From positions 62,001 to 126,000 of the forward strand of contig JAGBEO010000018.1 in NCBI GenBank assembly GCA_017936885.1: a DNA stretch of 64,000 nt. Reading direction: 5' to 3'. The translations under genes were made by a program, and so were the position numbers. Position 1 is the stretch's first letter. Each line of letters opens with the position of its first letter. The notes under the pieces were generated by a model, which worked only from the letters and a program-made list of their open reading frames with translations, was not told the DNA's origin and ran no database searches. This stretch comes from Lachnospiraceae bacterium (GTDB lineage: Bacteria > Bacillota > Clostridia > Lachnospirales > Lachnospiraceae). This document shows positions 41,761-63,229 of this stretch, piece by piece.

Positions 41761-41762
41761 AA

Positions 41763-42695: not shown

Positions 42696-43786
42696 TGTAT
42701 ATTGGGATAAATTGTTTTGAAGATGTTGAGATTCGAACAATAATATCTTCAATTGGAGAAAAGGGAACCTGTGATTTGACTGGTAAGAAAAATGTGTATA
42801 TATATGATACAGAACATGTATTGGAAGATTATGATTTAAAAGCATATTTTTTAGAAATAATTGACATATATACACCTGAATCAATGTTACCATCTGGTTT
42901 TCCAAGTGATAATTTGAAGCTAATTGAAGAAATTTTGGTGTCAGATTGGTCAATATTTTCAGTGCCAAAAGAATGTGTAAAACGTATTATTGTTGCAATT
43001 TGCAAGAGTGAATATCCTGAAGATTCTAAAATCTTTACAGAGAGGGTTGGATTGGAAAAGTTATGTGATTCGGACTTTTTGAGGAGAAATTGTCTTACAA
43101 GAGAATCGACATGGGAAAAGTTTACGAGTTCAATAAAAAGTATCAATCGATTCCATTCTAATCACATTAATTTGGATTTATTGAAAACGTTTTTTGAGAG
43201 CCCTGTAATGCAGAAGGTTATTGCAAAAGGAGATACTGAATTTTATAGAGCTAGAATCTCAGACGAGAACGGTTTAAAAAAGAGCGAGATGGGACCACCA
43301 CCGATGGGATTAATAACAGCAGGACGTGCCAATTCTCAGGGAATAAGATGTTTATATTTATCTAATGATGAGATAACGACAATACATGAGATAAGGGCGA
43401 GGGATTTTGATTACATATCTATTGGGAAATTTAAAGCAAGGCAAGAACTTCAAATAGTGGATCTGTCAAATCTCGATAAAATCAGTCCATTTTCGATGGA
43501 TGGTTTTAGTGCTGAATGGTTTTCAATTAATATGTCTATATTAAAGAAAATTAGTAGGGAAATTGCGAAACCACTTCGCCGACAAGATAGCGACTTAGAT
43601 TATTTGCCATCACAATATATTGCTGATTATATTAAAAGTTTAGGATATGATGGAATTTGCTATAGAAGTACTCTAAATAAGAAAGGGGTTAATTATGCTA
43701 TCTTTGATAGTAAAAAATTTGAATGTATAGAAGTGGATCTTGTTCATATTGATTCCGTGAAATATGAGATTACAACTAAAAATTGA
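42695..43786 (+). CDS. RES-domain protein (possible NAD+-degrading toxin)
   Basis: A 363-residue protein with a C-terminal RES domain. Visible are FYRARISDENG (about residue 184), MGPPPMG, AGRANSQGIRCLYLS, TTIHEIRAR and QYIADYIKSLGYDGICYRS. RES toxins of toxin-antitoxin systems phosphorolyse or otherwise deplete NAD+, using Arg, Tyr and Glu residues in these motifs. The first 180 residues match nothing I know and may sense or regulate. It begins with GTG, overlapping the sce7725 stop, and AAGGAGAG lies upstream. The classic Xre/MbcA antitoxin is absent, so the upstream two genes may fill that role or all three may be a defence unit. Confidence 0.8.
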   Translation: MYIGINCFEDVEIRTIISSIGEKGTCDLTGKKNVYIYDTEHVLEDYDLKAYFLEIIDIYTPESMLPSGFPSDNLKLIEEILVSDWSIFSVPKECVKRIIVAICKSEYPEDSKIFTERVGLEKLCDSDFLRRNCLTRESTWEKFTSSIKSINRFHSNHINLDLLKTFFESPVMQKVIAKGDTEFYRARISDENGLKKSEMGPPPMGLITAGRANSQGIRCLYLSNDEITTIHEIRARDFDYISIGKFKARQELQIVDLSNLDKISPFSMDGFSAEWFSINMSILKKISREIAKPLRRQDSDLDYLPSQYIADYIKSLGYDGICYRSTLNKKGVNYAIFDSKKFECIEVDLVHIDSVKYEITTKN

Positions 43787-44793: not shown

Positions 44794-44818
44794 AACCATT
44801 TGAAACTCAATCAAAATC

Positions 44819-44847
44819 TTGATAAAATTGAAAGAAAGTGATAAAAT
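44819..44847 (+). promoter_or_regulatory. Promoter of the phosphorothioation-like gene cluster
   Basis: TTGATA (44819-44824), 17 bases, TAAAAT (44842-44847). It is the only convincing promoter pair before the nine-gene cluster, followed by a 138-base leader. Confidence 0.65.
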
Positions 44848-44890
44848 AAAACAATAATATGCAATATTTTAGTTTGATGTAGGAGAAACA

Positions 44891-44947
44891 ATGGAAAGTG
44901 TTGAAAGAACCCTTTGTAGGAGGCTAATGGTACATCATTGGTGTTAG
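44891..44947 (+). CDS. Possible 18-residue leader peptide ORF
   Basis: ATG at 44891 follows AGGAGAAACA, and 18 codons end in Trp-Cys-stop (44945-44947). The peptide contains two Cys and three Arg. It lies in the leader of the cluster, 37 bases before the DndC-like gene. It could sense Cys or Arg charging, or simply be chance. Confidence 0.25.
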   Translation: MESVERTLCRRLMVHHWC

Positions 44948-44984
44948 CGTTACAGTGATGAAAAGGAAGTAGGTGAGCGACAGA

Positions 44985-46700
44985 ATGTGGTGCAGGAATT
45001 GTAATCTAGAAACAAATGAAGAAGAGTGCCCGGTCTGTGGCGAAAAAACCATAGAGGATTTTCCGACAGAGGTTTACTGGTGCAAGAAGTGTAAGACTCC
45101 TATCATTCAGACAATAAATCAAGCAGATAAAGGCATATGCCCGATATGCGGTGGAAAAACGAAATATCTGACTACGGATTTGAGGCCGGTTTTTCCGGAG
45201 GAAAGGCTGCTGTTAGAAATACTGTTGGATAAGAAGCCACATGAATTCATTAAGAACTCAGTATGGGCAGCTAATAGCAGATATTATATTGATGGAAAAA
45301 GCGTTTTTATTCCGAGTTCTGTATTTCAACATGCAGATACGGATGCGATTGGAGAGAAACTTAAACAGAATTCAGAAGCGAATACATATGAGTATTTTAA
45401 TGAACACATTAAAACATTTATAGAGGCTAATAGGAGCAGGCTTAACTATCTCAAAGATGAAGCTTTTGAGTTTGTTAGAAAGACTGCATCCAGATTTGAT
45501 GAGGAACGTTTGGTTATTTCTTTTTCAGGGGGTAAAGATTCAACGGTGACGGCCGATGTTGTTGTAAAGGCGTTGAGTAATCCGAGTCTTGTGCATATCT
45601 TCGGAAACACAACACTGGAGTTTCCGACAACCGTAAAGTATGCAAAACGGTATAGAGAGAATCATCCGCAGGCAATTTTCCTGGTCGCTAAGAATGAAGA
45701 ACAGGTATTTTATGATGTTTGCGAGGATATTGGACCGCCAGCCAGAATGATGCGCTGGTGTTGTTCGATGTTTAAGACAGGACCTATCACGCGAGTGATA
45801 AACAGCTTGTATAGAAACCAGCAGATTCTTACATTTTACGGAATCCGTAAATCGGAATCCGTTAGTCGAAGCAAATACAACAGAGTAGAGGATGACGCTG
45901 AGTCGGTAAAGATCCAGCAGCAGACAGTGGCATCTCCAATTTTCTGCTGGAAGGACTTGGATATATGGCTGTATATGTTGGCAGAGGAGGTGGATTTTAA
46001 TGAAGCTTACAGACTGGGGTACGATCGGGTAGGATGCTGGTGCTGTCCGAACAATAATCAGAGAGCACAGTTCCTATCTAGGATATACATGCCTGAAGAA
46101 TCCCAAAAATGGCGTGAATTCCTAATCGGATTTGCTAAAAAGATTGGTAAAGAAGATGCAGAGGTATATGTAGACACTGGAAAATGGAAGGCGCGTCAGG
46201 GAGGAAATGGTCTGGCAGCAGCCGGTGATGTAAAGATTAAGTTCACTAATTGCACCACAGAAGAGTATGCGAAGATTTATCGTCTGGTAAGACCCTTTGA
46301 TGATGAGTTGGTAGGTATGTTTACCCCGTTTGGTCGCGTCGCTCCGGAACTAGGAAAAAAATTGTTGCGAGAGGTATTGGTTTTGGATTCAAGGACGAAT
46401 GTGCCGATATTGTCTATTCAACCATTCAGTCAGGGTGAATATGAACATGCGGTAAAGGTTCGAACCATGAACGTAAAAAAACACGACGATCTGCAGCGAA
46501 TGGTTGGATACCAGGTACGAAAGTTTAATGCATGCAGGAAATGTCTGAAGTGCGAATCCATTTGTAGAGCAGGCGCTATTTCGATTTCCGGGGATAGATA
46601 CTATATTGATCCGGACAAGTGCGTACATTGCAAAATGTGCATGACGGCAAAGTATCTTGATGGCGGATGTATAATGGACAAATATTTAAGAACAAAGTAA
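44985..46700 (+). CDS. DndC-like PAPS-reductase-family enzyme with zinc ribbons and ferredoxin domain
   Basis: A 571-residue protein. Two zinc ribbons are at the N-terminus (CRNCN...CPVCG and CKKCK...CPICG, residues 3-52). A PP-loop ATP pyrophosphatase domain has SFSGGKDST near 180, followed by the Cys-rich WCCSMFKTGPI and GCWCCPNNNQ. The C-terminus (about 515-565) is a 4Fe-4S ferredoxin (CRKCLKCESICR, CVHCKMC). DndC sulfurtransferases that build DNA phosphorothioate use the same PP-loop plus Fe-S logic; a sulfur carrier is encoded downstream. The start at 44985 follows AGGTGA; the GTG at 44973 is possible. The same AGGTGAGCGA element precedes the helical gene at 56778. Confidence 0.85.
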   Translation: MWCRNCNLETNEEECPVCGEKTIEDFPTEVYWCKKCKTPIIQTINQADKGICPICGGKTKYLTTDLRPVFPEERLLLEILLDKKPHEFIKNSVWAANSRYYIDGKSVFIPSSVFQHADTDAIGEKLKQNSEANTYEYFNEHIKTFIEANRSRLNYLKDEAFEFVRKTASRFDEERLVISFSGGKDSTVTADVVVKALSNPSLVHIFGNTTLEFPTTVKYAKRYRENHPQAIFLVAKNEEQVFYDVCEDIGPPARMMRWCCSMFKTGPITRVINSLYRNQQILTFYGIRKSESVSRSKYNRVEDDAESVKIQQQTVASPIFCWKDLDIWLYMLAEEVDFNEAYRLGYDRVGCWCCPNNNQRAQFLSRIYMPEESQKWREFLIGFAKKIGKEDAEVYVDTGKWKARQGGNGLAAAGDVKIKFTNCTTEEYAKIYRLVRPFDDELVGMFTPFGRVAPELGKKLLREVLVLDSRTNVPILSIQPFSQGEYEHAVKVRTMNVKKHDDLQRMVGYQVRKFNACRKCLKCESICRAGAISISGDRYYIDPDKCVHCKMCMTAKYLDGGCIMDKYLRTK

Positions 46701-46721
46701 CGACGATGGAGGTTGGGTGTT

Positions 46722-47618
46722 ATGGAAATGAAGTTTCGTGCTCATGATACTTTTTTTATAAGAAAAGGCTGGCTTAGCAAGGGTATGGAACGAATTGTGG
46801 AAAAGCCGGATCTCTTTATAGATAGAAATGAGAATCCAATGGATATTCTTGGCATTGGCTCTAACATGGTTAAGGCTCTCCGATATTGGCTGCAAGCGGT
46901 AGGACTTACAACGGAGCCTGACAGAGGCAGGAGAATACAGAGCCTGACGCCGTTAGGAGAGCAGATTTATTTAAATGATAGGTATATAGAGGAACTGGGT
47001 ACTTTATATTTGCTGCAGTATCAACTGGCAAAGCAGAATGAAGAAGCTACGGCATGGTATTTTTTCTTTAATGAGTTTTCAATGTCGGAATTTATGAGAG
47101 AAGAGTTTGTGCAGGCACTACAGAATTATATACTCATGGCAGATGATGCGAGTTCAGTTGCAATCAGATCGCTAAACGATGATTTCGCATGCATCATTAA
47201 TACCTATTTGCCTAGATACAAATCGAATCCGGGAAAGGTGTCTCCGGAGAATAATATCGATTGTCCGTTTGGTGAACTGGGATTGATTGATATTGCAAAC
47301 AGAAAACAGAAAACATATAAGAAGTCGATTCCGGCGGCAGGATCTTTAAATCCGTGGGTTGTACTCGCAGTGATTGCGGATCAGGCTGATGGAAGAGATG
47401 AAATTGGTCTTAATGAGTTGCTTACTAAACCATGCAATATAGGTAAAGTATTCAATCTTGATGCAATAACCATGTTAGATACCTTGCATGAAATAGAGAA
47501 TCTTGGGTTGATCAAGATAATAAGAACCGCTGGATTGGATGTTATTCATTTGAATCAGCAATTTGGCTTCAATGAATGTGTACAGAAATATTACGAGAAT
47601 ATTGATGAAGGAATATAG
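46722..47618 (+). CDS. DUF4007 protein
   Basis: A 298-residue DUF4007 protein; I recall this family mainly beside PAPS-reductase-like genes in modification clusters. The start MEMKFRAHDTFFIRKGWLSKG is typical. The body is helical, and the C-terminal portion (about 200-298) has a winged-helix look (GLNELLTKPCNIGKVF). It may bind DNA or partner the PP-loop enzyme. The start at 46722 follows GATGGAGG; the TTG and GTG before it have no spacing advantage. Confidence 0.8.
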   Translation: MEMKFRAHDTFFIRKGWLSKGMERIVEKPDLFIDRNENPMDILGIGSNMVKALRYWLQAVGLTTEPDRGRRIQSLTPLGEQIYLNDRYIEELGTLYLLQYQLAKQNEEATAWYFFFNEFSMSEFMREEFVQALQNYILMADDASSVAIRSLNDDFACIINTYLPRYKSNPGKVSPENNIDCPFGELGLIDIANRKQKTYKKSIPAAGSLNPWVVLAVIADQADGRDEIGLNELLTKPCNIGKVFNLDAITMLDTLHEIENLGLIKIIRTAGLDVIHLNQQFGFNECVQKYYENIDEGI

Positions 47619-47628
47619 GTGACTGTCG

Positions 47629-50600
47629 ATGAGTAAAATGATTTCTGTCGCTTCAGGATTTCAGTATTCAGTAAATATAGGATACGACCTGAACAATGAT
47701 GATAAATTGAAAAATTTTATTCCAACGAGATCGGCATTGGCGCTGCTGGAGGAAGTCCTTTTAAGTACTGCTACTTCATCAACTGAACGTGCTCGTGTGC
47801 TTATTGGTGCTTATGGTAAGGGGAAGTCTCATATTGTACTAACAATATTGGCTATGCTTATGAGAAGGGATCTGGACCTTTTCAAAAAAGCTATGCCTAA
47901 GATTAAGGATAATCCGAGACTGTATCAGTGTGTCCAGAACTATTATGAATCGAATAATAAGATTCTTCCGGTTATTATTACGGGAAGTAATACCAGCTTA
48001 CCACAGGCATTCCTTCTTGCATTGCAAAGGACTCTGTCTATGAACGGGCTTCTGGATGTGATGCCTGAAACAAATTATAAGGCGGCTGTAAAAGTTATTG
48101 AAAGATGGGAGAAGGATTTCCCTGAGACATATAAAAAGTTAAAAGATGCGATTGATATGCCGATCAAGAAATATATTGAGACATTACAGTCATATAGCAC
48201 AGAGGCATACGAACGGTTTGAAAAAATATATCCCACATTAACTGCGGGCAGTGTATTCAATCCATTCCTGGGTTTTGATGTTGTAGATCTATATGATGAA
48301 GCCGTTCGTGGACTGAAACGCAAGGGATATACTGGAATATATGTTATTTATGATGAGTTCAGTAAGTTCCTGGAAGCGAATATTACAGAGGCATCTGTAA
48401 GTGATACAAAAATGCTTCAGGATTTTGCTGAAAAGTGTAATCGTAGTGGGGAACAGCAGATGCATTTGATGTTGATTTCTCATAAGGAAATAGCAAACTA
48501 TATTGACAAGCTTCCTAAGCAGAAAGTAGATGGGTGGCGTGGAGTTTCTGAGAGATTTAAGCACATTCATCTTAATAATAATTTTACTCAGACTTATGAA
48601 ATTATTGAATCCGCAATTCAGAAGAAAGAAGCGCTTTGGAAGAACTTCTGTGCAAGCTATAGCGATAGTTTTGCGGGATTAACGCAAAGGTATGAAAAAC
48701 ACAATATATTCAGCGATGTTGCTCAAGGACAAGTAGAAAAAACTATTTATGGATGTTATCCGTTGCATCCTGTATCGACATTTATATTGCCTAGATTATC
48801 AGAACGTGTTGCTCAGAATGAAAGAACACTATTTACTTTCATTTCAGCGCCGGGTGTATCAACGCTTCCGGCTTTTTTGGAGAACTATCAGGATGATCAT
48901 TTTGAAGTTATTACACCGGATCTGATATATGACTATTTTGAGCCTTTATTAAAAAAGGAGGTATATAGCGGGAGCATACACGAAAACTATATTTTAACAG
49001 AATTGATTTTGGAGAAGCTGAATGTGGATTCTCTGGAAAGCAAGATTATAAAGACGCTATCACTGATTTATATCCTTGAGCAGTTTGAAAAATTGCAGCC
49101 TTCAAAGGATGAATTGATTAGTATTTTTTCTATAAGCTATAGTCCGGAAGAGATTAATCAGACGATTGATAATCTTATAGAGAAGGAATACGTGATCTAT
49201 TTGAAGCGAAGCAATAATTATCTTCGTTTAAAGCAGACGTCTGGAGTGGACATACGCCAGAAGATTAATGATATGGTCGAGGTTCAGAGTAGAAGGGTGA
49301 CGGTTAAGGAAACCTTGAATAACTCTAATTTTGATAATTATGTTTATCCGTCTCGATACAACAATGAGCGAGATATGATTCGCTTTTTCTCATTTGAGTT
49401 TATTGATGAGGATGAGGTGTCAGAAGATATTGATTGGACGCTCAAAAGTGAATCCATAGAAGCAGATGGCGTGATCTATGGAATTATATCGCATAGTGAA
49501 GAATCAATTGCGAGGCTAAAGAAATTATTGATTGCTACGAGTGAGAATTGCGATCGCTATATTTTTATTTTGCCAAGACATTTTTCTTCTATCGAGGAGA
49601 TTGTAAGAGAATTTAATGCAGTATCTGTCTTAAGGGACAGCGCTAATGACGATAAAGTTCTGTTTGAAGAATATGAAGTAATTTATGAAGATTTACGAGA
49701 AGTTATTGGATCCTTTATGCGTGGATATACAAGGCCGGAGGAGTATAAGTCAAGATATATCCATAATGGACAGGAAGTGCCGGTAGGTAGAAAGGCGGCA
49801 CTAACAGAACTGATGTCTAATATTTGTGATCAGGTTTATTCATGCACCCCGATTATAAATAATGAGGCCATGAATAAAAATGAGATCACTGCAACTGCTA
49901 ATAATAGTCGAAATAAAATAGTTGCAGCTTTGCTGAGAAATGAACTAGAACCTAACCTCGGGCTGACCGGATCGGGGCAGGAAGTATCCATTATGAGGAG
50001 TACACTTGTGCGCACGGGTGTATGGGAAGAAAACGGTGGATGGCCAAGACTTAATCTGCATCCGGACAAGGTGGCTCATATGGCAGAAGTTTTAGAGACC
50101 ATTGAGGATTTCATTGTAGAGACACGCCAAAATGGGACAGTCTCTTTTGCAGAGTTATACAAGCGATTGATTGCACCGGAATATCATATTGGTCTTAGAA
50201 AGGGATTAATACCTATTTACCTCTCTGCTGTTATTCATGAGTATAAGAGAGAAGTGATAATTGCAGATCAGTATGGCCAGGTACCGGTGTCAGCAGATGT
50301 AATGATGCAGATAAATTCGAAGCCGGATATGTTTACGTTATCGTATTTGGATTGGAATCCGGAAAAAGAGACTTTTGTACAGTGTTTATCGGATTATTTT
50401 GCAGACTATGTTGTGGACGCAGAGCGTGGTGCTAATTCTTACGATTACGTTGTATCGGCGATGAGACGATGGTATATGGCTCTGCCGAAATATGCAAAGG
50501 AATGCAAGGCTAAGCCGGATGGTGGTACGTTAAGAAAAGATTATCAAGAAATGCTGAGACTCTTAAAACAGAATATCAGCGGAAATGAGTTATTGTTTGA

Positions 50601-51246
50601 GAAGCTACCAAAGATATTTGGATTTGCAGAATTTCAAGATGCTTTGGCTGATAACGTGAAAATGGCAAAGGACTTTTATGACAACTATTTAGTTGAAGTA
50701 AAGAAAGTTCTAAAGAAAGAGGTAAAGGAGATCTTTGCTTTACCAAAGGATAAGGACAATGTTGATCGGATGTCGTTAGCGTCGGTTATTAAGGACTGGT
50801 GTGAAGCACTTGATTCGACGGTATTTGAGCAGCTTTTCACCGATGGAACAGAAAAATGTTTGGGACTCTTTAAAACCATTACAAACGATGATGACTTCAC
50901 GATTGTAAGACTTGCGAAGCTTGCTACGGATCTCAGAATTGAAGACTGGGATGAAAAAGTAAAGGCATTGTTTATATTTAATGTAAAAAAATACAAAGAG
51001 ACAGCAGAAGCACATCATTCTGCTAAGGAGTCTGTAAGAGAAGAACAGAGTACGAGTGCATACCAAATTAGCTTCACAGACGATAATGGCGGAGTGATTA
51101 CCAAACGGTTTGATAAGGTGGAAGGCACAGGAAAAGGCAGATTATTGCACAATCAAGTGACAGCTGCATTGGATTCAATGGGACGGTCGATATCTGATCA
51201 AGAGAAGAGGCAGATCTTGATGGAAATATTAAAAGAACTTTGCTAG
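47629..51246 (+). CDS. Large BrxC-like P-loop ATPase
   Basis: A 1205-residue ATPase. Walker A is GAYGKGKS at residues 60-67 and the Walker B-like segment IYVIYDEFSKFLEA lies near 240. The rest is a long helical scaffold with a conserved YPLHPVSTFILPRLSERVAQNERTLF-like region (about 380-410; described by its motif, not in full). BrxC/PglY ATPases of BREX defence have this architecture. The gene starts with AGGTGA 7 bases before the ATG and ends three codons before the cysteine desulfurase. No BREX methylase or PglZ occurs in the window, so it works here as part of another system. Confidence 0.8.
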   Translation: MSKMISVASGFQYSVNIGYDLNNDDKLKNFIPTRSALALLEEVLLSTATSSTERARVLIGAYGKGKSHIVLTILAMLMRRDLDLFKKAMPKIKDNPRLYQCVQNYYESNNKILPVIITGSNTSLPQAFLLALQRTLSMNGLLDVMPETNYKAAVKVIERWEKDFPETYKKLKDAIDMPIKKYIETLQSYSTEAYERFEKIYPTLTAGSVFNPFLGFDVVDLYDEAVRGLKRKGYTGIYVIYDEFSKFLEANITEASVSDTKMLQDFAEKCNRSGEQQMHLMLISHKEIANYIDKLPKQKVDGWRGVSERFKHIHLNNNFTQTYEIIESAIQKKEALWKNFCASYSDSFAGLTQRYEKHNIFSDVAQGQVEKTIYGCYPLHPVSTFILPRLSERVAQNERTLFTFISAPGVSTLPAFLENYQDDHFEVITPDLIYDYFEPLLKKEVYSGSIHENYILTELILEKLNVDSLESKIIKTLSLIYILEQFEKLQPSKDELISIFSISYSPEEINQTIDNLIEKEYVIYLKRSNNYLRLKQTSGVDIRQKINDMVEVQSRRVTVKETLNNSNFDNYVYPSRYNNERDMIRFFSFEFIDEDEVSEDIDWTLKSESIEADGVIYGIISHSEESIARLKKLLIATSENCDRYIFILPRHFSSIEEIVREFNAVSVLRDSANDDKVLFEEYEVIYEDLREVIGSFMRGYTRPEEYKSRYIHNGQEVPVGRKAALTELMSNICDQVYSCTPIINNEAMNKNEITATANNSRNKIVAALLRNELEPNLGLTGSGQEVSIMRSTLVRTGVWEENGGWPRLNLHPDKVAHMAEVLETIEDFIVETRQNGTVSFAELYKRLIAPEYHIGLRKGLIPIYLSAVIHEYKREVIIADQYGQVPVSADVMMQINSKPDMFTLSYLDWNPEKETFVQCLSDYFADYVVDAERGANSYDYVVSAMRRWYMALPKYAKECKAKPDGGTLRKDYQEMLRLLKQNISGNELLFEKLPKIFGFAEFQDALADNVKMAKDFYDNYLVEVKKVLKKEVKEIFALPKDKDNVDRMSLASVIKDWCEALDSTVFEQLFTDGTEKCLGLFKTITNDDDFTIVRLAKLATDLRIEDWDEKVKALFIFNVKKYKETAEAHHSAKESVREEQSTSAYQISFTDDNGGVITKRFDKVEGTGKGRLLHNQVTAALDSMGRSISDQEKRQILMEILKELC

Positions 51247-51263
51247 AAAAAGGAGGCGGCAGG

Positions 51264-52409
51264 ATGGCGTATTTTGATAACGCTGCGACAACATATCCGA
51301 AACCTGAAGCGGTCTACTCTTTTATGGATAACTTCTACAGACAAAGCGGTGGTAATGCTGGACGCGGAAAGTATTCGATGGCACAAACTGCTGGTAGTTT
51401 AATAGCAGATACAAGAAAAAGGTTACAAGAGTTGCTGCATTGCCCTGCTAAGCAGGTGGTTTTTACTCCGACAGCAACGATTGCCTTGAATATTATTATT
51501 CAAGGGATATTAGCAGCCGGGGTACGTAATGTTTATATAAGTCCATTTGAGCATAATGCGGTAACGAGAATATTGCATCATTTTGAAAATGAGGGTTCCG
51601 TGTCGGTTCATCAACTTGCTGTAACAAAAGGGTTTGTATATGACATGGAAAAAATAAGGTATCAATTCGATTTAGTTAAACCAGATTTTGTTATTGTCAG
51701 CCATGCAAGTAATGTAATGGGGCTAGTAGCGCCGGTGAAAGAGATTTTTTTATTGGCGAAAAAACGGGGAGCTATTACTTTGGTTGATATGGCGCAGAGT
51801 GCGGGACTGGTTGATCTAAACGTGGGACTTAGCTGCATTGATTTTGCTGTATTTGCTGGTCATAAGACTTTATACGGTCCTACAGGGATTTCTGGCTTTA
51901 TTATGGAGCCAGCAGTTAAGTTCCCGGCGGTCATTTTCGGAGGAACAGGGTATGAATCTGCTAATCAGAATATGCCAGAGAGTCTCCCAGAAAAGTATGA
52001 GATGGGAACACTTAATATAGTTGGAGTAGCAGGATTGAATGCTGCACTTAAATGGATTCAAGAAATTACTGTAGAGGAGATATGGCGTAAAGAAGAAGAA
52101 CATAGAAAGCGTCTGCTGGATATTTTAAATCAATATGACTTTATCAAGATCGTTGGTGCTTCACAAGGAGCGCGTTACGTTGGAATAGTATCTTGCTTAT
52201 TGGATGACATTAGTAGTGATAGCGCAGGTAATATTTTTGATCAACAAGGCATTGCTGTAAGAACGGGACTGCATTGTGCACCATTGGCGCATCAGTTTTT
52301 AGGAACATATCCGGCTGGAGCAGTTCGATTTAGTGTGAACTACTTTACAACGGATGATGATTTTGAGCAGCTGCAGGAGGCGCTGGATTTTATAGAGGAA
52401 AATCTATAG
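51264..52409 (+). CDS. Cysteine desulfurase (SufS/CsdA-like, DndA equivalent)
   Basis: A 381-residue PLP-dependent class V aminotransferase that removes sulfur from cysteine as a persulfide. YFDNAATTYPKPEAVY is the start motif; PLP Lys is in AGHKTLYGPTG near 200; catalytic Cys is in RTGLHCAPLAHQ near 338. In Dnd systems DndA supplies the sulfur to DndC; position inside this cluster makes that the likely use. The start at 51264 has AGGAGG 7 bases before; an earlier start at 51240 overlaps the ATPase gene and adds a Gly-rich lead. Confidence 0.9.
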   Translation: MAYFDNAATTYPKPEAVYSFMDNFYRQSGGNAGRGKYSMAQTAGSLIADTRKRLQELLHCPAKQVVFTPTATIALNIIIQGILAAGVRNVYISPFEHNAVTRILHHFENEGSVSVHQLAVTKGFVYDMEKIRYQFDLVKPDFVIVSHASNVMGLVAPVKEIFLLAKKRGAITLVDMAQSAGLVDLNVGLSCIDFAVFAGHKTLYGPTGISGFIMEPAVKFPAVIFGGTGYESANQNMPESLPEKYEMGTLNIVGVAGLNAALKWIQEITVEEIWRKEEEHRKRLLDILNQYDFIKIVGASQGARYVGIVSCLLDDISSDSAGNIFDQQGIAVRTGLHCAPLAHQFLGTYPAGAVRFSVNYFTTDDDFEQLQEALDFIEENL

Positions 52410-52419
52410 GAGGATCTAT

Positions 52420-54585
52420 ATGGGACTTAAAGAGTTGAATATTAAAAGTGAATATAGATCGTTTATTGATGATGTGGTTAAAGATTTCTATATTCCATTG
52501 CTAAGCGAGGCTGTTTTGTATCAGAGAGCGGTTGGCTTTTTCTGCTCATCAGCCCTTTCAATGATTTCAAGAGGAATAAAAGGGTTAATAGAAAATGGTG
52601 GAAAGATACAAATAGTAGCTTCACCGAGATTGACAAAAGAAGATTATGAAGAGATAGAGAAAGGTTATGAACTCAGAAAAGTAATTGAAAATTCGCTTTC
52701 TAGAGAATTAAAAGAGCCAGAAGGTGAGGAGGATAGGGAAAACCTATCATTTATAGCTCAACTTGTGGCGCAGGGCATTCTTGATATAAAAATAGCTTTT
52801 CTAACTACTCAGAATGAAGTCTCTATGTACCACGAAAAGATGGGAATAATAACTGATGCGAATGGGGATTCGGTAGCGTTTTCTGGATCCATGAATGAAA
52901 GTGAAAACGCCTTTAGAGGCAATTACGAATCATTTGATGCTTTTTGTTCCTGGACATCAGATGTAGAAAGAGTGTTCCAAAAGCAGATGGCTTTCAGAGC
53001 AATTTGGGAGGATTACGAACCTGGAATCGAGATTTATGAATTCCCAGAAGCAGTAAAGCGGCGATTATATGAATATAATCCCGAAGTGGTAGACAAACTG
53101 CATAGTATGGCGGCAAGAAAAAAGAGAGATGAAAATGTTGATGATGAGAAAACACCTATTCATCTGCCGGAAGATTTCAAAATAAGGTCATATCAGAGTC
53201 AGGCATTAGAAAAATGGGAAGAAAATGGATTCCGTGGCATATATGATATGGCAACAGGTACTGGAAAAACGCTGACGGCACTTGCAAGTATTGAATATTT
53301 GTACAGATACAATAATAACCGCCTGGCAATCGTTATTGTATGTCCTTATCAGCATTTAGTAGAGCAGTGGTGTGAAGATATCGTTCGATTCGGAATAAGA
53401 CCAATAGTTGGGTATTCAGCGTCAACACAAAAAAACTGGAGGAAGCATCTTGAACAAGCAGTCAGATCGTTTAATTTAGGCGTTTTAGATCAGTTCTGCT
53501 TTGTAACAACGAATGCGTCATTTGTGACGAAATCAGTACAACAACAGATTCAACTTTTATCAACTGATACGGTGTTTGTCGTAGATGAAGCCCATAATAT
53601 GGGAGCAGGAAATTACAGACGCTGTTTACCTAGTGGAATACCTTTTCGATTAGCATTATCTGCGACAATTGACAGACACAACGATGAAGCGGGGACGGAT
53701 GCATTAAAGTCCTTTTTTGGAGAAAAGTGTATAGAGTATTCGCTTAGAGAGGCGATAGACAATCAAATGCTCACAAGATACTACTATTATCCAGTATTAA
53801 CATACTTGGATGAAGATGAGTTGGATGAGTATTTATCTATTACGCATCAGTTGGCGAAGGCTATTACAAAGAGAAAGGGAAAAGTAGTTCTTTCAGAATA
53901 TGCGAAACAGTTGTTGATAAAAAGAGCAAGAATTGTGGCTGGAGCAAGGGGAAAATTACCGGAGTTAGAAAGACAGATACAACCATTTAAGGATGATAAA
54001 CATCTGCTGGTATATTGCGGAGCAACAACAATAAAAGCCAGAGATGCTGATGACCTATCGTTCGGGACTAGACAAATAGATCTTGTTACAGATTTGCTTG
54101 GAAATAAAATGCAAATGCGTGTAGGGAGATTTACATCGCAAGAAACGGCACAGGAACGAGCACAGATAAGGAATGCATTTGCTAAAGGAGAAATGCTGCA
54201 GGCATTAGTGGCTATTAAGTGTTTGGATGAGGGTGTTAATATTCCGAACATAAAAACAGCATTTATTCTGGCCAGTAGCACAAATCCAAAAGAGTATATT
54301 CAGCGTAGGGGAAGAGTATTGAGAAAATTTCCAGGGAAGGAGCATGTGATGATTTTTGATTTTATCACATTGCCGTTTAGTGCTGATACACTGGCAGGTC
54401 AAAGTTCAGATGTAATCAGTTCGTCTAAGGGGTTAGTAAAAAGAGAATTGATAAGAATGTTGGATTTTGCAGAGATATCAGAGAATCCATCAGAAACATA
54501 TGACTTGATTTATGAGTTGAAACATGGATTTCGAATTACTGAGGAAGAGTTGAAAGAAGAGGAGGAACATAGCGATGTTATCTGA
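52420..54585 (+). CDS. PLD-domain SF2 helicase, phosphorothioation-associated type
   Basis: A 721-residue protein. The N-terminal phospholipase-D-like nuclease region (about 30-190) has one HxK motif (MYHEKMGI near 137) and GSMNESENAFRGN. The SF2 helicase core then shows Walker A ATGTGKT near 278, DEAH box VVDEAHNMG near 388, LSATIDR and motif VI (EYIQRRGRVLRKF) near 625. This architecture resembles the restriction-enzyme class I recall with DNA phosphorothioation systems. It would translocate on DNA and could cut DNA lacking, or carrying, the modification. It overlaps the small gene at its end by 11 bases. Confidence 0.85.
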   Translation: MGLKELNIKSEYRSFIDDVVKDFYIPLLSEAVLYQRAVGFFCSSALSMISRGIKGLIENGGKIQIVASPRLTKEDYEEIEKGYELRKVIENSLSRELKEPEGEEDRENLSFIAQLVAQGILDIKIAFLTTQNEVSMYHEKMGIITDANGDSVAFSGSMNESENAFRGNYESFDAFCSWTSDVERVFQKQMAFRAIWEDYEPGIEIYEFPEAVKRRLYEYNPEVVDKLHSMAARKKRDENVDDEKTPIHLPEDFKIRSYQSQALEKWEENGFRGIYDMATGTGKTLTALASIEYLYRYNNNRLAIVIVCPYQHLVEQWCEDIVRFGIRPIVGYSASTQKNWRKHLEQAVRSFNLGVLDQFCFVTTNASFVTKSVQQQIQLLSTDTVFVVDEAHNMGAGNYRRCLPSGIPFRLALSATIDRHNDEAGTDALKSFFGEKCIEYSLREAIDNQMLTRYYYYPVLTYLDEDELDEYLSITHQLAKAITKRKGKVVLSEYAKQLLIKRARIVAGARGKLPELERQIQPFKDDKHLLVYCGATTIKARDADDLSFGTRQIDLVTDLLGNKMQMRVGRFTSQETAQERAQIRNAFAKGEMLQALVAIKCLDEGVNIPNIKTAFILASSTNPKEYIQRRGRVLRKFPGKEHVMIFDFITLPFSADTLAGQSSDVISSSKGLVKRELIRMLDFAEISENPSETYDLIYELKHGFRITEEELKEEEEHSDVI

Positions 54586-54739
54586 TGAGATCCAGAAGGT
54601 ACAGATCAATGAGCAGAAATTAACACAAATGAAAAATTTGATTATTTCGGCTGAGCGTAAGAATATTAAAACAGGCGAATTTACTACACAGGACATGGTG
54701 AAGGCGATAAAAAAAATAGTTGAAAAGAATGCCGAGTAA
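54575..54739 (+). CDS. Small modification-cluster protein (54 aa)
   Basis: A 54-residue protein between the helicase and DndD-like genes. GAGGAGG lies about 9 bases before the ATG at 54575, and the start overlaps the helicase stop by 11 bases, so it is translationally coupled. It is Lys/Glu-rich and helical (MLSDEIQKVQINEQKLTQMK at its start). I recall NCBI naming similar small proteins as DNA-modification-system-associated. It takes the position of DndE in Dnd clusters, but is about half DndE length and need not be homologous. Confidence 0.7.
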   Translation: MLSDEIQKVQINEQKLTQMKNLIISAERKNIKTGEFTTQDMVKAIKKIVEKNAE

Positions 54740-54754
54740 GGAGGAGAAGAAGAA

Positions 54755-56767
54755 ATGTTGATTAAAAGTATAATTCTAAACAATTTTCGGCAGTTCAAAG
54801 GAAATCAAAGATTAGAATTTTCAACAGATGCCGATAAGAATGTCACTGTTCTGTTAGGAGATAATACGTTTGGAAAAACAACAATCTTACAGGCGTTTAA
54901 CTGGTGCCTGTATGGTGTGGCTGATTTCCCGAAGGATAGTAATCCGGACTTTTTGCTCAATTTAGAAGTGGCAAATGAACAGGCAGGAATTCAACAAAAA
55001 TGCGAAGTTTTTGTTGAGGTACTTCTATCTCATAAAGATACAGAATATATTGTACGTCGCACTCAAGCATATGTAGATCGTGCGTATGGCAGCTGGAACG
55101 CATTAAATAGTCAATTAGCTGTATCGTATAAAGAAAATGGCATTACAAAGCAAGTTAGAGAAGGCGAAGAACGAACTATTATAAACTCGATTCTTCCACA
55201 GTCATTATCGGGTTATTTTTTCTTTGACACGGAGCGAGTTTCAGATATAAGCACAAGAAAAGATTTATCTGAAGCTGTTCGTGGTCTACTAGGATTGGCT
55301 CCGGTTAGCAATGCAAGAAAACATTTAGGATCACGCACATTAAAAAATACTGCGATTGGTCAATGGAATGACGCGCTAGATTCTGATGGAGATGAACGAG
55401 CAAAAAATGCCCAGGACACCATTGCAAGAGAAGCTGAGAAGAAAGAGTCATTGCAGAGGGAGATTGATAATGCTGACAAAGAGCTACAATCTTTGAATGT
55501 ACAGAAGGAAAAGATTGCGGAGATTCTTCGAGATAATCAGAGTACGGCTGAGTTACAGCGTCAAAAGCAACAGTACGAAAGAAAGTTGGAAGATGAAAAA
55601 GCAGAATTGATGCGATGCAATAAGTTGTTTATAGACTTTTATAACAACTCTATTGTTACATACATAGCTCTCCCAATAATGGATCAGGCGGAAGAATTTC
55701 TTGCAAATGCCAATGTGGATGACAAAGGCATTCGTGACATGACAGAGGCTTCTATTAGAGACATCATAAAGCGTGGAAGATGTATATGTGGTGCGCCTAT
55801 TGTTGTGGACGAGAATGAGGAGACAGGGAATGACGCATATAATCACATCATGCAGGAGATGAAATATCTTCCACCGGCACACATCGGTACTTCGATACGT
55901 AATCTTAAACAATTATTGGAAACGGATAGACGGAGTGTTTCTCAGTTCTATCCAATCGTGGAACAGCAATATAAGGAGATTCAAAAGCACAGAGATACCA
56001 TTGCACAATTAGAGGATGACATTAGCCGGATAGATGCAAGTATTTTTGGCAAGGAAAATATGAGCAGCTATGAAGGCGATATGAATCGTATTAAGGCTGA
56101 TATTAAGCGAATGAATGAGAAAAAAGAGCGGTGCAATAGAGATATCGGTGCATGTGAAGCGGCGATTGATGCAGCACAGAAAGTATACGATGGTTTAGTG
56201 TCTGCGTCAGAGCGTAATAGAAGACTGATAGTTTATCTAGCATATGCTGAAAAAATCTGTTCTTGGATTGATGAAACGTATGCTGAAAAAGAACAAGAGA
56301 TGCGAGTACGTCTTCAGGAGCGTGTCAATGATATTTTCTCTAGAATGTATCATGGAGAACGCCGTGTTCAAATTGATAAACAGTACCACGTCACGCTATT
56401 TGCACAGTTAAATGGAAAGGAAGTTATTACAGGAGAATCTGAAGGTCTGAAGCGTGTCAAGAATTTTGCATTTATAGCTGGACTTGTTGACTTGGCAAAA
56501 GAAAAGGCTTCATTAGGTCGAAACGCTACGGATACTATTTCATGGGAGAATGAGGCTTATCCGCTGGTAATGGATGCACCTTTCTCTAACGCAGATGAGA
56601 CGCATATTAAGAATATCTCTGGAGTGCTTCCAGAGGTGGCAAATCAGGTAATCATGTTTGTTATGGAAAAGGATTGGCAGTATGCAGAGTCAGTTATGGC
56701 AGTACGTGTTGGTAAATACTGCAAGTTGATGAAACAAACTGAATCCCATACGGAAATCGAGAATTGA
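54755..56767 (+). CDS. DndD-like SMC/Rad50-type ATPase
   Basis: A 670-residue ATPase with split nucleotide site. Walker A is LLGDNTFGKTT near 38; Walker B is LVMDAPFSNADETH near 606. A coiled coil spans about 190-330 and 380-520, joined by a zinc-hook-like CxxC (GRCICGAP near 345). SGYFFFDTERVS near 160 is typical of DndD. DndD proteins work in the DNA phosphorothioation complex, perhaps opening or nicking DNA for sulfur insertion. AAGGAGG precedes the ATG. It ends just before the next gene at 56778. Confidence 0.87.
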   Translation: MLIKSIILNNFRQFKGNQRLEFSTDADKNVTVLLGDNTFGKTTILQAFNWCLYGVADFPKDSNPDFLLNLEVANEQAGIQQKCEVFVEVLLSHKDTEYIVRRTQAYVDRAYGSWNALNSQLAVSYKENGITKQVREGEERTIINSILPQSLSGYFFFDTERVSDISTRKDLSEAVRGLLGLAPVSNARKHLGSRTLKNTAIGQWNDALDSDGDERAKNAQDTIAREAEKKESLQREIDNADKELQSLNVQKEKIAEILRDNQSTAELQRQKQQYERKLEDEKAELMRCNKLFIDFYNNSIVTYIALPIMDQAEEFLANANVDDKGIRDMTEASIRDIIKRGRCICGAPIVVDENEETGNDAYNHIMQEMKYLPPAHIGTSIRNLKQLLETDRRSVSQFYPIVEQQYKEIQKHRDTIAQLEDDISRIDASIFGKENMSSYEGDMNRIKADIKRMNEKKERCNRDIGACEAAIDAAQKVYDGLVSASERNRRLIVYLAYAEKICSWIDETYAEKEQEMRVRLQERVNDIFSRMYHGERRVQIDKQYHVTLFAQLNGKEVITGESEGLKRVKNFAFIAGLVDLAKEKASLGRNATDTISWENEAYPLVMDAPFSNADETHIKNISGVLPEVANQVIMFVMEKDWQYAESVMAVRVGKYCKLMKQTESHTEIEN

Positions 56768-56777
56768 GGTGAGCGAA

Positions 56778-57329
56778 ATGTTTGAAGGTGATTACACGAT
56801 TTATGGTAAGCATGCCACATACATAAAATATCTTGTAAATGATGCAAAAGCATTTAAGCGATACATAGATGTTTATATGACAGGGGCAATGCTTGGTATA
56901 CTAAACGATAAAAGATCCGTAGCAGGAGACTCTACAGATCGAGCAAGAATCTATTCGGAGGCATTTAATACGGAACATATAAAATGCAATGAGTTATTTA
57001 AATTAGTGATTCTTAATGACACATCTAAAGCATGGTCGGATGAGGAACGGGTAAATATTTGCTTTCGTTATCGCGACAAAATGGATGAAAACGCTGTACC
57101 TCCGGTTCGGCCCGAAGAGATAAGCGCGATGAAAGAAGCGTTGGATTTGTTTAACAGTTATGTTCTTGGCGGAATTGAACTTTTATATGAAAGCTTTTCA
57201 AGCAGTGCAACCGTAGGAATAGATGAAACAGTGGATTATGCTTATAAGGCAATCTTTGATCAGAGAACACTGATCGAAAGCAGACAGGAAGGGACAGATG
57301 TAGATCAGTTGCTTCGTCCGGAATATTAA
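56778..57329 (+). CDS. Helical protein of unknown function in the modification cluster
   Basis: A 183-residue soluble, mostly helical protein that I do not recognise. Conserved-looking segments are MFEGDYTIYGKHATYIKYL, DSTDRARIYSEAFNTEHIK and NSYVLGGIELLYESF. The ATG at 56778 follows AGGTGA, the same ribosome-binding element as the first gene; a GTG at 56769 is the alternative. It directly follows the DndD-like gene and may be a structural partner. Function unknown. Confidence 0.7.
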   Translation: MFEGDYTIYGKHATYIKYLVNDAKAFKRYIDVYMTGAMLGILNDKRSVAGDSTDRARIYSEAFNTEHIKCNELFKLVILNDTSKAWSDEERVNICFRYRDKMDENAVPPVRPEEISAMKEALDLFNSYVLGGIELLYESFSSSATVGIDETVDYAYKAIFDQRTLIESRQEGTDVDQLLRPEY

Positions 57330-57341
57330 TTGGTGGGAAAG

Positions 57342-60068
57342 ATGGAAGTAATACCTATTGAAAAACTGGCTATGTCAACACGTGCAAATCATGTGTTGCA
57401 TAGAATGGCAATAGAAACGGTGGATGAGCTAATGGCTACACCGATTACAATAATTGCTGAACAGAGAAATGTAGGGGCAAAGACCGTTGCAGAAATTGAG
57501 GATACCTTAGACAAACTTAATACAGGTGAAATCTGCCTTGCGGAGTTGGAAACGGAGAATATGGATTCTTCAGCGGAAGTGAGCTTTTCTGAGAATCAAT
57601 TATTAGAATTATCGCGACATTCAATTGCCGAATTAGGGCTGTCAGTAAGAGCCTATAATGTATTGATGAGAGCAGAATGCATGACTTTAGATAAAGTGGC
57701 GATTCTTAGCGAAGAAGATCTAGCTGATTTAAAAAACTCCGGGAAAAAGACAGTTGTAGATATTCGACAATCCATAGGAAACTGGCTTGCTGAAAATATG
57801 ATTTCATCGATGAACGTAGAAGATAATGAAGAAATGGCAATTGATCGGGAAGTGCAGGAGTATTATCAACGCCTAGCGTCGATGATATCCCCATTGGGGC
57901 AGATTTGCTGGCGTAAACTTTATCAGTATGCAGAAAGTGTCGGACTAATGGAACGGATTATATCCGGGGGAGTGGATCAGATATTCCCAGACAATATAAT
58001 AGCTGTATTGGAGATTCCCAATTTGCAGGAAAGCTTGAAGACATTTTTCTTGAAAGTTGCGCCGGATGGGATTATAAGGACGGAAGAGCTGGAAAAAAAC
58101 ATTTTGCTTCAGAACCTGGAAATTAATAAGGACATTTTGCTTGAAAAACTCTGCGATGGAACAATATGTTTGGAAAAAGATGGGTATATCTTGCTTAAGC
58201 GTAGAAAAATTGTAGAGCTCATATCCGACAAATGCAGTAATGAACAGAGAGAGTATGGTATTCTTGAAAAACGATTAGCGGGAGAAAGTCTACAGAGTAT
58301 AGCTGATGAGTTCGAGTTAACTAGAGAGAGAATACGCCAAATTGCAAGGAAAACGGTATGTAAGTTTCCACTGCTGTGGGAAGACTATTTTAAAGAACCG
58401 TTTGAACGCTTTAGATTTTCAAAGCAAGAATTTAGTTATGCGTTTCCTTTATGTGGAGAAGAAGGATATGAATACCTGTTGCTTAGATATTCAAAAGGAA
58501 AAGAAGAGTTAACAGAAGAGACTTTGAAAGAGTATGATGGTATATTTGCAAATCGACTGAAGATCTATTTGAAGGAAGCGGCAATACGGCGCGACAAACA
58601 GACAGTGTCTCGGACAGATATGGTATATCGTGTTTTGATTAGTAATAGTGATCGAGCACTGTCGATGGATGATTTTGAGACCGCTTATTATGAGTATATA
58701 GATTTGAAAGGTTATCCAAGAGATCGGTTAGAACTTAATGTAAGAACGGTTGCAAATCATTTACGTAATGCCAAGAATATAGTATTTAATGAGCAGAATT
58801 GCGTAAGATATTGTGATGTGGATTATTATCAGATATGGGAGAATATAGACTTTAACCGCTACAAGAATTTGGTGATATCATCGGATCGCATTTTTCAGGA
58901 TTACAGTGAACTGATGGAAGACCTCGATATTAGAGATGGTTATGAATTATTTTATGTAATAAAATCTTCTCTTGAAAATTGGATCAACAGAGAGTTTGAT
59001 ATTAGTTGTCGTCGTGTACCGGTTATTATTTTTGGGAAAGGGGATGAGGCTGTTCAAGCAGTGCATTTCCTGAGAGAAATATCTCCGGTGGATTACTTTG
59101 ACTACTATCAAGCCTATGAGGAACGATATGGGTTACATAAGGAGTCGGCGCAGGGGAACCCGACTATAAGCAACGCGCTGAGTCAATATTATATTGATGG
59201 CAAATATGTAATTGATGTGCCGACAATTGACGAGAGAGATGCAAGTGAATTTAAACAAATGCTTGCGAAAAGAAAAATTTGGTTCATCGATGATTTGGAA
59301 AAGATTTTTAAGGAAATCTGTGTGCATTCATCGGAGGATGCATTAAATGCTGCTGCTTTTAAAAGAATCGGATATTCTTTAAATGCAGGATATGCGTATG
59401 ATGACAAGTATGGCTCAGTATCTAACCTTTTCGATACGGAAATATTCAACGGGAACATTGTTGATATGACTCAATTTGATCGACGCTTAACAACATTATC
59501 TGCTTTTGGGTCTGCTTTAGACAAGACAAAGAAGTCATTGGAGTATATTGAGACGGCACCTAAAATATTGATGTCATTGGAATGCGTGGAACAGCATTAC
59601 GGTATTACATCTGAGGAAATCAAAACGTTGCAACATTGGGTGTTAGATTCCTGTGAGGAAAAGTATTTTAATGCCCATAGTTTGTGGAATATAATCAAGG
59701 AAAATTCTATAGTTCAAAAACTCCAAAATAACGAGTGGATGTGTACATGCGTGTTTAGACAACAGGAAGAAGTATATTCGCTCTCTGTTGCAGGTGGAAT
59801 TATTTTGGCTAAGGACAGTACTGTTTTGAACTTAAGTAAAATATGTGAATGGATAGTTGAAAAAGAGGGTAAGATGTCTATTCAGAATCTCACTGGTGCT
59901 TTTAATGATACGTTTAATACAAACATTCCATATCATAAGATTGCCGAGAAATTGAAAGCGAGCGGAAGTTGGGATGTTTGTGTGACGGATTCGTTTGATG
60001 ATTATTTGGATACATTAATGATTGGTGTAGAGGAAGAAACAGATTTGTTCCAAGAGGAATTCTTCTGA
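57342..60068 (+). CDS. Large protein with two alpha-CTD-like HhH domains and sigma-region-4-like HTH
   Basis: A 908-residue protein, last of the cluster. Residues 5-60 and about 82-147 each resemble the C-terminal domain of the RNA polymerase alpha subunit (ELGLSVRAYNVLMRA...; GKKTVVDIRQSIGNWL), a helix-hairpin-helix fold that binds UP-element DNA. Near 310-345, ESLQSIADEFELTRERIRQI is like sigma factor region 4.2 (-35 recognition). The remaining 550 residues match no domain I know. The start at 57342 is set by GGTGGGAAAG; TTG and GTG starts at 57330 and 57333 are alternatives. It might read DNA sites, block transcription or sense polymerase in infected cells; this is inference. Confidence 0.75.
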   Translation: MEVIPIEKLAMSTRANHVLHRMAIETVDELMATPITIIAEQRNVGAKTVAEIEDTLDKLNTGEICLAELETENMDSSAEVSFSENQLLELSRHSIAELGLSVRAYNVLMRAECMTLDKVAILSEEDLADLKNSGKKTVVDIRQSIGNWLAENMISSMNVEDNEEMAIDREVQEYYQRLASMISPLGQICWRKLYQYAESVGLMERIISGGVDQIFPDNIIAVLEIPNLQESLKTFFLKVAPDGIIRTEELEKNILLQNLEINKDILLEKLCDGTICLEKDGYILLKRRKIVELISDKCSNEQREYGILEKRLAGESLQSIADEFELTRERIRQIARKTVCKFPLLWEDYFKEPFERFRFSKQEFSYAFPLCGEEGYEYLLLRYSKGKEELTEETLKEYDGIFANRLKIYLKEAAIRRDKQTVSRTDMVYRVLISNSDRALSMDDFETAYYEYIDLKGYPRDRLELNVRTVANHLRNAKNIVFNEQNCVRYCDVDYYQIWENIDFNRYKNLVISSDRIFQDYSELMEDLDIRDGYELFYVIKSSLENWINREFDISCRRVPVIIFGKGDEAVQAVHFLREISPVDYFDYYQAYEERYGLHKESAQGNPTISNALSQYYIDGKYVIDVPTIDERDASEFKQMLAKRKIWFIDDLEKIFKEICVHSSEDALNAAAFKRIGYSLNAGYAYDDKYGSVSNLFDTEIFNGNIVDMTQFDRRLTTLSAFGSALDKTKKSLEYIETAPKILMSLECVEQHYGITSEEIKTLQHWVLDSCEEKYFNAHSLWNIIKENSIVQKLQNNEWMCTCVFRQQEEVYSLSVAGGIILAKDSTVLNLSKICEWIVEKEGKMSIQNLTGAFNDTFNTNIPYHKIAEKLKASGSWDVCVTDSFDDYLDTLMIGVEEETDLFQEEFF

Positions 60069-63101: not shown

Positions 63102-63174
63102 TTTTAAGGCTTAAGTGTCTCGCAGAAAATGTATAATGCTTCAAAATTTAAAATATGAAAAATGAATTTGCGCG

Positions 63175-63229
63175 GCTAATATATTATTCCTAACTTGCCA
63201 AAATTTCATGAAAGAGCTAAAATATTAGC
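63175..63229. promoter_or_regulatory. Two operator-like sites before hipB
   Basis: GCTAATATATTA (63175-63186) and GCTAAAATATTA (63216-63227) differ at one base; the second is part of palindrome GCTAA-AATA-TTAGC, ending one base before the hipB start. Two such sites 41 bases apart suit an autoregulating HipB-type repressor. Confidence 0.5.

Follow-up and report, generated by a model that had tools for sequence, protein, structure and literature searches.

What an operon does that joins apparent machinery for the sulfur modification of DNA to a protein built in part from RNA polymerase and sigma factor domains is the question raised by nine genes of a Lachnospiraceae bacterium. They lie in a stretch of 64,000 nucleotides (GCA_017936885.1, contig JAGBEO010000018.1, positions 62,001 to 126,000 of the forward strand), hereafter the window, to which all positions refer unless a locus label is given; the host assembly (3.57 Mb, 93.6% complete) bounds every genome-wide absence reported here. 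By gene content, the operon appears to pair two known modules, an Ssp-type phosphorothioation (PT) module (genes 1 to 4) and a PbeABCD attack module (genes 5 to 8), followed by gene 9. We put at roughly 70% the probability that it is a PT-based restriction system separating self from non-self, in which gene 9 belongs to the attack module as an accessory able to bind promoter-like DNA.

The nine open reading frames (ORFs) were confirmed on the plus strand between 44973 and 60068; neighboring frames are spaced by -11 to +15 bp, and genes 1 to 9 encode 575, 301, 1205, 389, 721, 54, 670, 186 and 912 amino acids (aa). The initial annotation had already described nine tightly packed genes, and its interval (44819..60068) is right at the end and not at the start, which lies ahead of the first codon, within a cluster of promoter matches. 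Several Pfam matches were far above chance, namely PAPS_reduct (E 9.5e-31), DUF4007 (4.5e-84), Aminotran_5 (5.5e-76), ResIII (2.6e-21), AAA_23 (1.4e-20) and, in two stretches, RNA_pol_A_CTD (3.1e-24).

Judged by profile scores and motifs, the first four genes are a PT module of the order SspD-SspB-SspC-SspA, not a Dnd module. Gene 1 carries N-terminal CxxC pairs, a PP-loop (SGGKDS) and a C-terminal ferredoxin-type domain with two cysteine sets. It scored 276 bits against BrxP and 44 bits against both DndC and the SspD model, and its 41 bits against the DndC equivalog are far from the cut-off of 290.4; it was also the sole match, below cut-off, of a genome-wide DndC search. When 52 PAPS reductases of the loci collected below were placed in a tree (23 DndC, 17 long SspD and 12 short SspD, no row misplaced), gene 1 fell in the long SspD clade, apart from DndC and short SspD, although this tree is not an independent test because the labels came from profiles built on the same loci. 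The protein, first called DndC-like, is best described from these profiles as a long, BrxP-like SspD. Ferredoxin-bearing long PAPS reductases are found in bacteriophage exclusion (BREX) type 4 and in a subset of Ssp systems (PMC12839542; this and all other papers are cited for the parts consulted). Gene 2 is the only SspB copy found in the host genome. Gene 3 has a Walker A motif GAYGKGKS and a Walker B motif VIYDEF, and its earlier label of BrxC-like ATPase gives way to SspC on the scores in Table 1. Gene 4 retains the GHK lysine and the RTGLHCA cysteine and exceeds the TIGR01977 cut-off (446 against 377 bits); the SspA and DndA models score it nearly equally, and the DndA equivalog reaches 114 bits against a cut-off of 480. 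DUF4007 and the cysteine desulfurase had been named at the outset.

Genes 5 to 8, by profile and predicted fold, are a complete PbeA-B-C-D set in the published order. Gene 5, with the motifs HxKx5D, ATGTGKT and DEAH, scored 807 bits with the PADLOC PbeA model and 510 bits with NCBIfam TIGR04095, below the latter's cut-off of 600; among PDB sequences it matched chiefly XPB/Rad25-type and other superfamily 2 (SF2) helicases. A PbeA scan of virus-derived contigs gave 79 loci, the best with 32% over residues 1-699 and the rest largely short helicase matches. The 54-aa ORF, listed from the start as a protein, is a real gene, namely pbeB: its relatives occupy the same position in other loci, and its ratio of non-synonymous to synonymous substitution (dN/dS) against Eubacterium sp. 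An11 is ~0.05. Gene 7 shows a hook CICG, a Walker A motif GDNTFGKTT and a Walker B motif LVMDAPF, and scored 377 bits against PbeC, 124 against DndD and 100.8 against the DndD equivalog (cut-off 245.9). In the corresponding tree a single change (support 87) parts PbeC from DndD, and the CxCG hook was seen in 54 of 70 PbeC proteins, with CxCP or CxxCG in six more and neither in ten, and in none of 17 DndD proteins. On these scores and motifs gene 7 is PbeC, with its CxC hook, rather than the DndD-like protein initially suggested. As for gene 8, the first three structure matches of its predicted model were DndE, by which PbeD has a DndE-like fold and is a cognate of DndE; this fold match replaced a weak link drawn from sequence. 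A search against PDB sequences gave one chance row (E 0.26).

The closest scheme had been taken to be the haloarchaeal DndCDEA-PbeABCD, and its second half was upheld. As in Haloterrigena jeotgali A29 (PMC6459918), the four Pbe genes appear in the same order, with approximately the same sizes, next to a PT module; in the window, however, that module is Ssp instead of Dnd, and a ninth gene is added. Because the genes from the helicase to the helical protein make up a complete PbeABCD, the proposed candidate new system would be not wholly new, but a new pairing of two known modules with a poorly known accessory. Sulfur insertion of the PT type remains the reading favored by gene content, whereas its attribution to Dnd fell with the placement of the DndC-like and DndD-like genes outside those families. 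The absence of DndB was confirmed (PF14072, no match in the host genome), and no DptFGH/DndFGH-type module was seen among the matches listed for the nine genes (the best 25 of the longer tables).

Could the operon be a misread BREX type 4 or canonical Dnd system? Gene 1 does score best with BrxP, and BREX type 4 (BrxP, SspB/DUF4007, BrxC, PglZ, BrxL) has homologs of SspB, SspC and SspD (PMC12839542); the two have in common a long BrxP-like PAPS reductase, DUF4007, an SspC-like ATPase and a cysteine desulfurase. Yet PglZ gave no match in the 93.6%-complete host genome, BrxL is missing from the matches listed for the nine genes, the SspC model scores far above BrxC, and the DndC, DndD and DndA equivalog cut-offs were all missed, with the trees in agreement. 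Both candidates were rejected on these grounds, and such a misreading appears highly improbable. With SspABCD systems, which work with SspE or SspFGH, the operon shares a single string of genes for SspA, SspB (DUF4007), SspC and a PAPS-reductase-like protein read as SspD, but this protein is of the long ferredoxin-bearing form and the attack module is PbeABCD. No SspE-type (GmrSD/DUF262) gene is among the nine, one GmrSD_N gene being found elsewhere in the genome, and no FtsK-type domain occurs among their Pfam matches, a comparison of domains that did not include the SspFGH sequences themselves. The CxC ABC ATPase-DndE systems of PMC10853773 have in common with the window the CxC hook of PbeC, the DndE-like fold of PbeD and an HKD-SF2 protein with a small protein, but in the parts consulted their partners are Dnd or a methylase, not Ssp, and no alpha-CTD/sigma-4 gene stands beside PbeA.

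By scanning genome contigs with a seven-row PbeA alignment, we found at least 149 relatives, of which 80 loci were kept; five from a class-wide search, four plasmids and the window brought these to 90 loci, annotated with our own profiles and labelled with L-numbers (the 89 fetched loci total 1.66 Mb). Ssp genes were nearby in 32 of the loci, Dnd genes in 25, neither in 33 (19 with an incomplete flank) and both in none, counts that are not natural frequencies because the loci were chosen by similarity to the window PbeA. Among 390 other genomes drawn whole from the class, 4 had PbeA relatives (E <= 1e-60). On a PbeA tree made by a quick method (70 of the 90 rows), the Ssp/Dnd distribution needs at least three changes, Ssp being found in one Firmicutes-dominated, one Bacteroidetes and one Proteobacteria group, and the window falls in a 20-row clade (97*) of 19 Ssp rows and one with neither module. 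Nine of the 89 other loci (L017, L023, L026, L027, L028, L030, L032, L033 and L051) have the genes on a single strand in the same order, SspD-B-C-A-PbeA-B-C-D, L032 carrying one more gene (751 aa) between sspA and pbeA; in a Rhizobium plasmid PbeB-C-D-A faces SspD-C-B-A. This recurrence suggests that the Ssp and Pbe modules are natural partners.

The opposite view, i.e. that the two work separately, with Ssp marks serving some other purpose and Pbe acting alone or as a suicide effector, finds a basis in PMC10853773, which doubts that PbeABCD stands in for DndFGH in a PT-dependent way and suggests cleavage or suicide, and in the frequent occurrence of pbeAC without dndCD nearby (320 of 553; PMC6459918). 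Given the same string and order in several lineages, and three or more PbeA tree branches that show the pairing, we regard it as decidedly unlikely. The partners named for SspABCD are SspE and SspFGH (PMC11662687), and a "mix and match" of PT modules is already published (PMC10853773). No description of an Ssp-Pbe operon was found in the searched literature naming both modules, as far as the parts consulted go; many subscription papers and bioRxiv were not covered, so no priority is claimed. GmrSD_N proteins were observed inside or at the end of certain Ssp-Pbe operons (L036 14947-17136, L032 7728-9980, L041 7833-9968); SspE is of the same DUF262 kind (PMC12707154), and these are possibly cases of two effectors sharing one modification module.

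For the marking and attack steps the proposed mechanism follows established work on SspABCD and PbeABCD. SspA would draw sulfur from cysteine and SspD would carry it, while SspB and the SspC ATPase would locate the site and insert the sulfur, probably in one strand as in SspABCD. The PbeC-PbeD pair (CxC ABC ATPase and DndE-like fold) would then scan DNA and direct the helicase-nuclease PbeA onto unmarked DNA, given host PT as in the archaeal system, with PbeB either keeping the attack complex together or restraining it. In the archaeal work, PT marking and PbeABCD jointly exclude a virus, whose replication stops without visible cleavage (PMC6459918), and the defence depends on host PT (PMC9239217); elsewhere cleavage is argued for and the role as restriction module doubted (PMC10853773). 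The HKD motif is present in the window PbeA. PT in the host and a role in defence are what we infer, as we do every step of gene 9 action considered below.

Gene 9 abuts pbeD with no gap, and its start is probably ATG 57342, behind a GGTGGG-type ribosome site, rather than TTG 57330. The transcription-machinery domains noticed in it at first sight were corroborated: RNA_pol_A_CTD, the C-terminal domain of the RNA polymerase alpha subunit (alpha-CTD), matches two stretches (84.9 bits in all), the match to Sigma70_r4 (sigma-4) is less strong (E 6.1e-5; 22.9 bits, cut-off 24.1), and a profile built from gene 9 together with five relatives matches alpha-CTD and sigma-4 chains in PDB. Aligned with RpoA of the host itself, both alpha-CTD copies retain the arginine and the GxK turn, and aligned with the host's principal sigma factor, sigma-4 retains TRERIRQI; these are presumably the positions that contact the UP element and the -35 element, as we take it from E. 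coli work. In the host genome alpha-CTD was found in RpoA and gene 9 only. No sigma region 2 was detected in gene 9 by Pfam, NCBIfam or a profile search against PDB, and it should therefore not start transcription; a true sigma factor was rejected for the same reason, unlike the genes of L027, L028, L030 and L033. As the predicted model is poor (mean pLDDT, i.e. predicted local distance difference test, 59.7; pTM, predicted template modelling score, 0.33), its winged helices outside the known domains are taken as a hint only.

Domains of this kind occur in other anti-phage proteins, namely PglW (alpha-CTD and winged helix-turn-helix domains) and BrxL (PMC12839542) and a DndH variant with a sigma-related helix-turn-helix (PMC10853773), as well as MzaA, whose sigma70 content is known from its NCBIfam name only. 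Gene 9 shares with these a polymerase-like domain within a seemingly defensive protein, but no kinase, nuclease or HerA/FtsK domain was detected in it. Its matches to MzaA (15 bits, residues 321-345) and PglW (30-32 bits, best stretch residues 9-65) are not full-length and cover just an alpha-CTD or the sigma-4 helix.

Table 1. Features of the operon and its upstream region, in window positions, with the evidence for each.
Feature	Positions	Strand	Evidence
Cluster of sigma70-like promoter matches	44800..44855	+	three matches, consensus only
Gene 1, SspD, long BrxP-like form	44973..46700	+	PAPS_reduct, Fer4, BrxP profile, tree, motifs
Gene 2, SspB (DUF4007)	46713..47618	+	DUF4007 282 bits, SspB 191 bits
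Gene 3, SspC ATPase	47629..51246	+	SspC 464 bits against BrxC 181; Walker motifs
Gene 4, SspA-type cysteine desulfurase	51240..52409	+	Aminotran_5 256 bits, SspA 148, DndA 139, TIGR01977
Gene 5, PbeA, HKD/PLD nuclease and SF2 helicase	52420..54585	+	PbeA 807 bits, TIGR04095 510
Gene 6, PbeB, small protein	54575..54739	+	position and size as in PMC6459918 (parts consulted), relatives, dN/dS ~0.05
Gene 7, PbeC, CxC-type ABC ATPase	54755..56767	+	PbeC 377 bits, tree, motifs
Gene 8, PbeD, DndE-like fold	56769..57329	+	fold search with predicted model
Gene 9, two RNA polymerase alpha-CTDs, sigma region 4 and a long remainder	57330..60068	+	Pfam, PDB profile search, alignment

Sigma-4 proteins recur beside Pbe. 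With a profile built largely from proteins of the collected loci, one was found in 15 of the 90, always as the neighbor of a Pbe gene (at 55 bp or less in 14, at 442 bp in L046); neither the fetched loci, 1.66 Mb in all, nor the window yielded another away from Pbe. The host genome has 22 Pfam sigma-4 matches, i.e. about one per 160 kb or some ten per 1.66 Mb, a rough control because the profiles differ and ours was made largely from these very proteins. Pfam itself sees sigma-4 in all 15 at E <= 0.01, with the window and L053 below the curated cut-off. Alpha-CTD and sigma-4 were combined in nine of the 15 (the window, L013, L015, L019, L043, L052, L053, L055 and L060; alpha-CTD above cut-off in five), four, all of them Ssp-Pbe operons, had behind pbeD a sigma70-like protein containing regions 2 and 4 (L027, L028, L030 and L033), and two had sigma-4 only (L046 and, on the opposite strand, L048). 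Eight of the loci carry Dnd, five Ssp and two neither, and the alpha-CTD gene lies directly before pbeA in six Dnd-Pbe loci (L013, L015, L019, L043, L055 and L060) and in L052 and L053. The sigma70-like genes, situated at ~14.9-16.5 kb of their loci directly behind pbeD, are divergent, that of L028 matching RpoD at 1e-63 yet with 216 bits against a cut-off of 572; the contig of L033 is probably misbinned, as it is titled Methanobrevibacter. Outside the 90, Pontibrevibacter plasmid NZ_CP049815.1 has a "sigma factor-like helix-turn-helix" gene at pbeA (~60-62 kb). No paper was found whose title or abstract start points to a sigma or alpha-CTD gene beside Pbe, in a search that did not cover many subscription papers or bioRxiv.

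Several observations weigh against a fixed role of gene 9 in the attack module. A sigma-4 protein is absent from 75 of the 90 loci, the sigma-like label needs at least nine changes on the PbeA tree, and the slot is variable, holding GmrSD behind pbeD in L036 or between sspA and pbeA in L032 and L041, and an unnamed family behind pbeD in L017, L023 and L024. This family, of ~350 aa (L017 1083-2132, L024 14799-15872, L023 14923-16164, the last cut by the contig end), has mutually related members without a Pfam match. Furthermore, the nearest full-length relatives of gene 9 are not beside Pbe, with 18-25% identity among nine aligned. The variable slot, these distant relatives and the changes on the tree would all suit an independent defence gene or mobile passenger settled at the variable end of the operon. 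A passenger would hardly be expected to adjoin Pbe in 15 of 15 loci against the genomic density given above, or to follow pbeD without a gap, and we consider this explanation rather unlikely.

Searches of 397 further genomes in the phylum gave relatives of gene 9 in 3, and searches of 294 further genomes in the order gave none; there was no match in phages, and the virus-derived contigs gave five short ones. Plasmid records with partial-length matches numbered 48 from Enterococcus and one from Exiguobacterium. Three of the Enterococcus plasmids were viewed; in these and in L191, which comes from another genome of the phylum, the relative is followed by a ~404-419-aa protein (no Pfam match in two scanned) and a SNF2-type helicase (L003 17197-22892, L004 13134-18809, L006 13588-19249, L191 8058-14589), an arrangement that may be an undescribed defence cassette. 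A weak PLD match, below cut-off, was seen in the L191 helicase and in a helicase ~7 kb off in the Exiguobacterium plasmid, and none was detected in Enterococcus; L190 and L192 have no SNF2-type or ~404-419-aa neighbor among those checked. The Exiguobacterium plasmid (L005 14248-23201) also has three successive ORFs that match the gene-9 profile.

A more serious alternative is that gene 9 is a mere transcription regulator, which would bind the operon's own UP/-35 region and hold the attack genes off until marking is done, as DndB does in Dnd systems. Every domain recognised in it is of a promoter-binding kind, the genome has no DndB match, and its relatives that occupy this slot are sigma70-like proteins having both region 2 and region 4. 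Upstream, the promoter-like cluster is rich in A/T, and sigma70-like matches between 43750 and 45050 on both strands number nine, against 3.9 expected in shuffles, these being matches to the consensus only. On the other hand, 912 aa with long parts beyond the domains would exceed the needs of a repressor, DndB is also present in the six Dnd-Pbe loci with an alpha-CTD/sigma-4 gene before pbeA, and the gene-9 relatives pair with SNF2-type helicases, with no Ssp, Dnd or PbeC called nearby. Taken by itself this explanation is tentative, although we hold a role as operon regulator to be nearly as likely for gene 9 as one in the attack module. We prefer the attack-module accessory because the kin of gene 9 go with Pbe or helicase genes no matter which modification module is present. 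As such an accessory, gene 9 would bind promoter-like DNA, its alpha-CTDs at the UP element and its sigma region 4 at the -35 element, and would most likely either bring PbeA to promoter-like sites or gate the expression or action of the attack module. A more specific version, which we offer as doubtful, is that gene 9 guides the attack: it would recognise UP and -35 elements and thereby load PbeA onto the promoters of unmarked DNA entering the cell, and the same principle, whether embodied in an alpha-CTD+sigma-4 or a sigma70-like protein, would apply to Pbe modules of several phyla and to the Enterococcus SNF2 cassettes.

The ~24 kb around the operon look like an island. Beyond ~40 kb the G+C content drops from 0.42-0.51 to 0.32-0.41, and the match to the only same-genus genome compared (G142) ends at 40561, just behind lysS, so that the low-G+C island spans 40562-64000. 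It includes tightly packed sce7726 and sce7725 family genes and a RES-domain gene (40915-43786), possibly another small defence or toxin-antitoxin-like cassette, as well as a 112-aa ORF with its stop at 44793, after which gene 1 starts 179 bp later. Downstream (61239-63998) are a gene for a 620-aa protein without NCBIfam match, which by our own reading of its sequence resembles AAA-ATPase-like genes, and one with a HipA N-terminal domain. No near DNA match to the operon was found in 72,556 plasmids. Against Eubacterium sp. An11, genes 1-6 have 83-89% identity and a dN/dS of 0.03-0.08, which roughly indicates purifying selection, the ratios being rough because dS is 0.9-2.1. The estimate applies to these genes alone because recognisable An11 homology stops after gene 6: the DNA match runs from 44967, just before gene 1, to 54740 at the end of pbeB, and the An11 contig (L022) stops 115 bp past it, with no recognisable pbeC start in that last piece (12321-12436).

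For both modules, the pairing may account for part of a known surplus. Sets of sspBCD without sspFGH or sspE number 2,211 of 2,678 (83.9% as printed; PMC8092258), and together with the PbeAC sets without dndCD cited above they may in part be explained by Ssp and Pbe each being the missing partner of the other. If gene 9 does guide the attack, restriction would be aimed at promoters rather than at a fixed short site. The recurrent sigma/alpha-CTD neighbor is, lastly, a possible fifth Pbe component, which would link defence at the level of the DNA backbone to promoter recognition.

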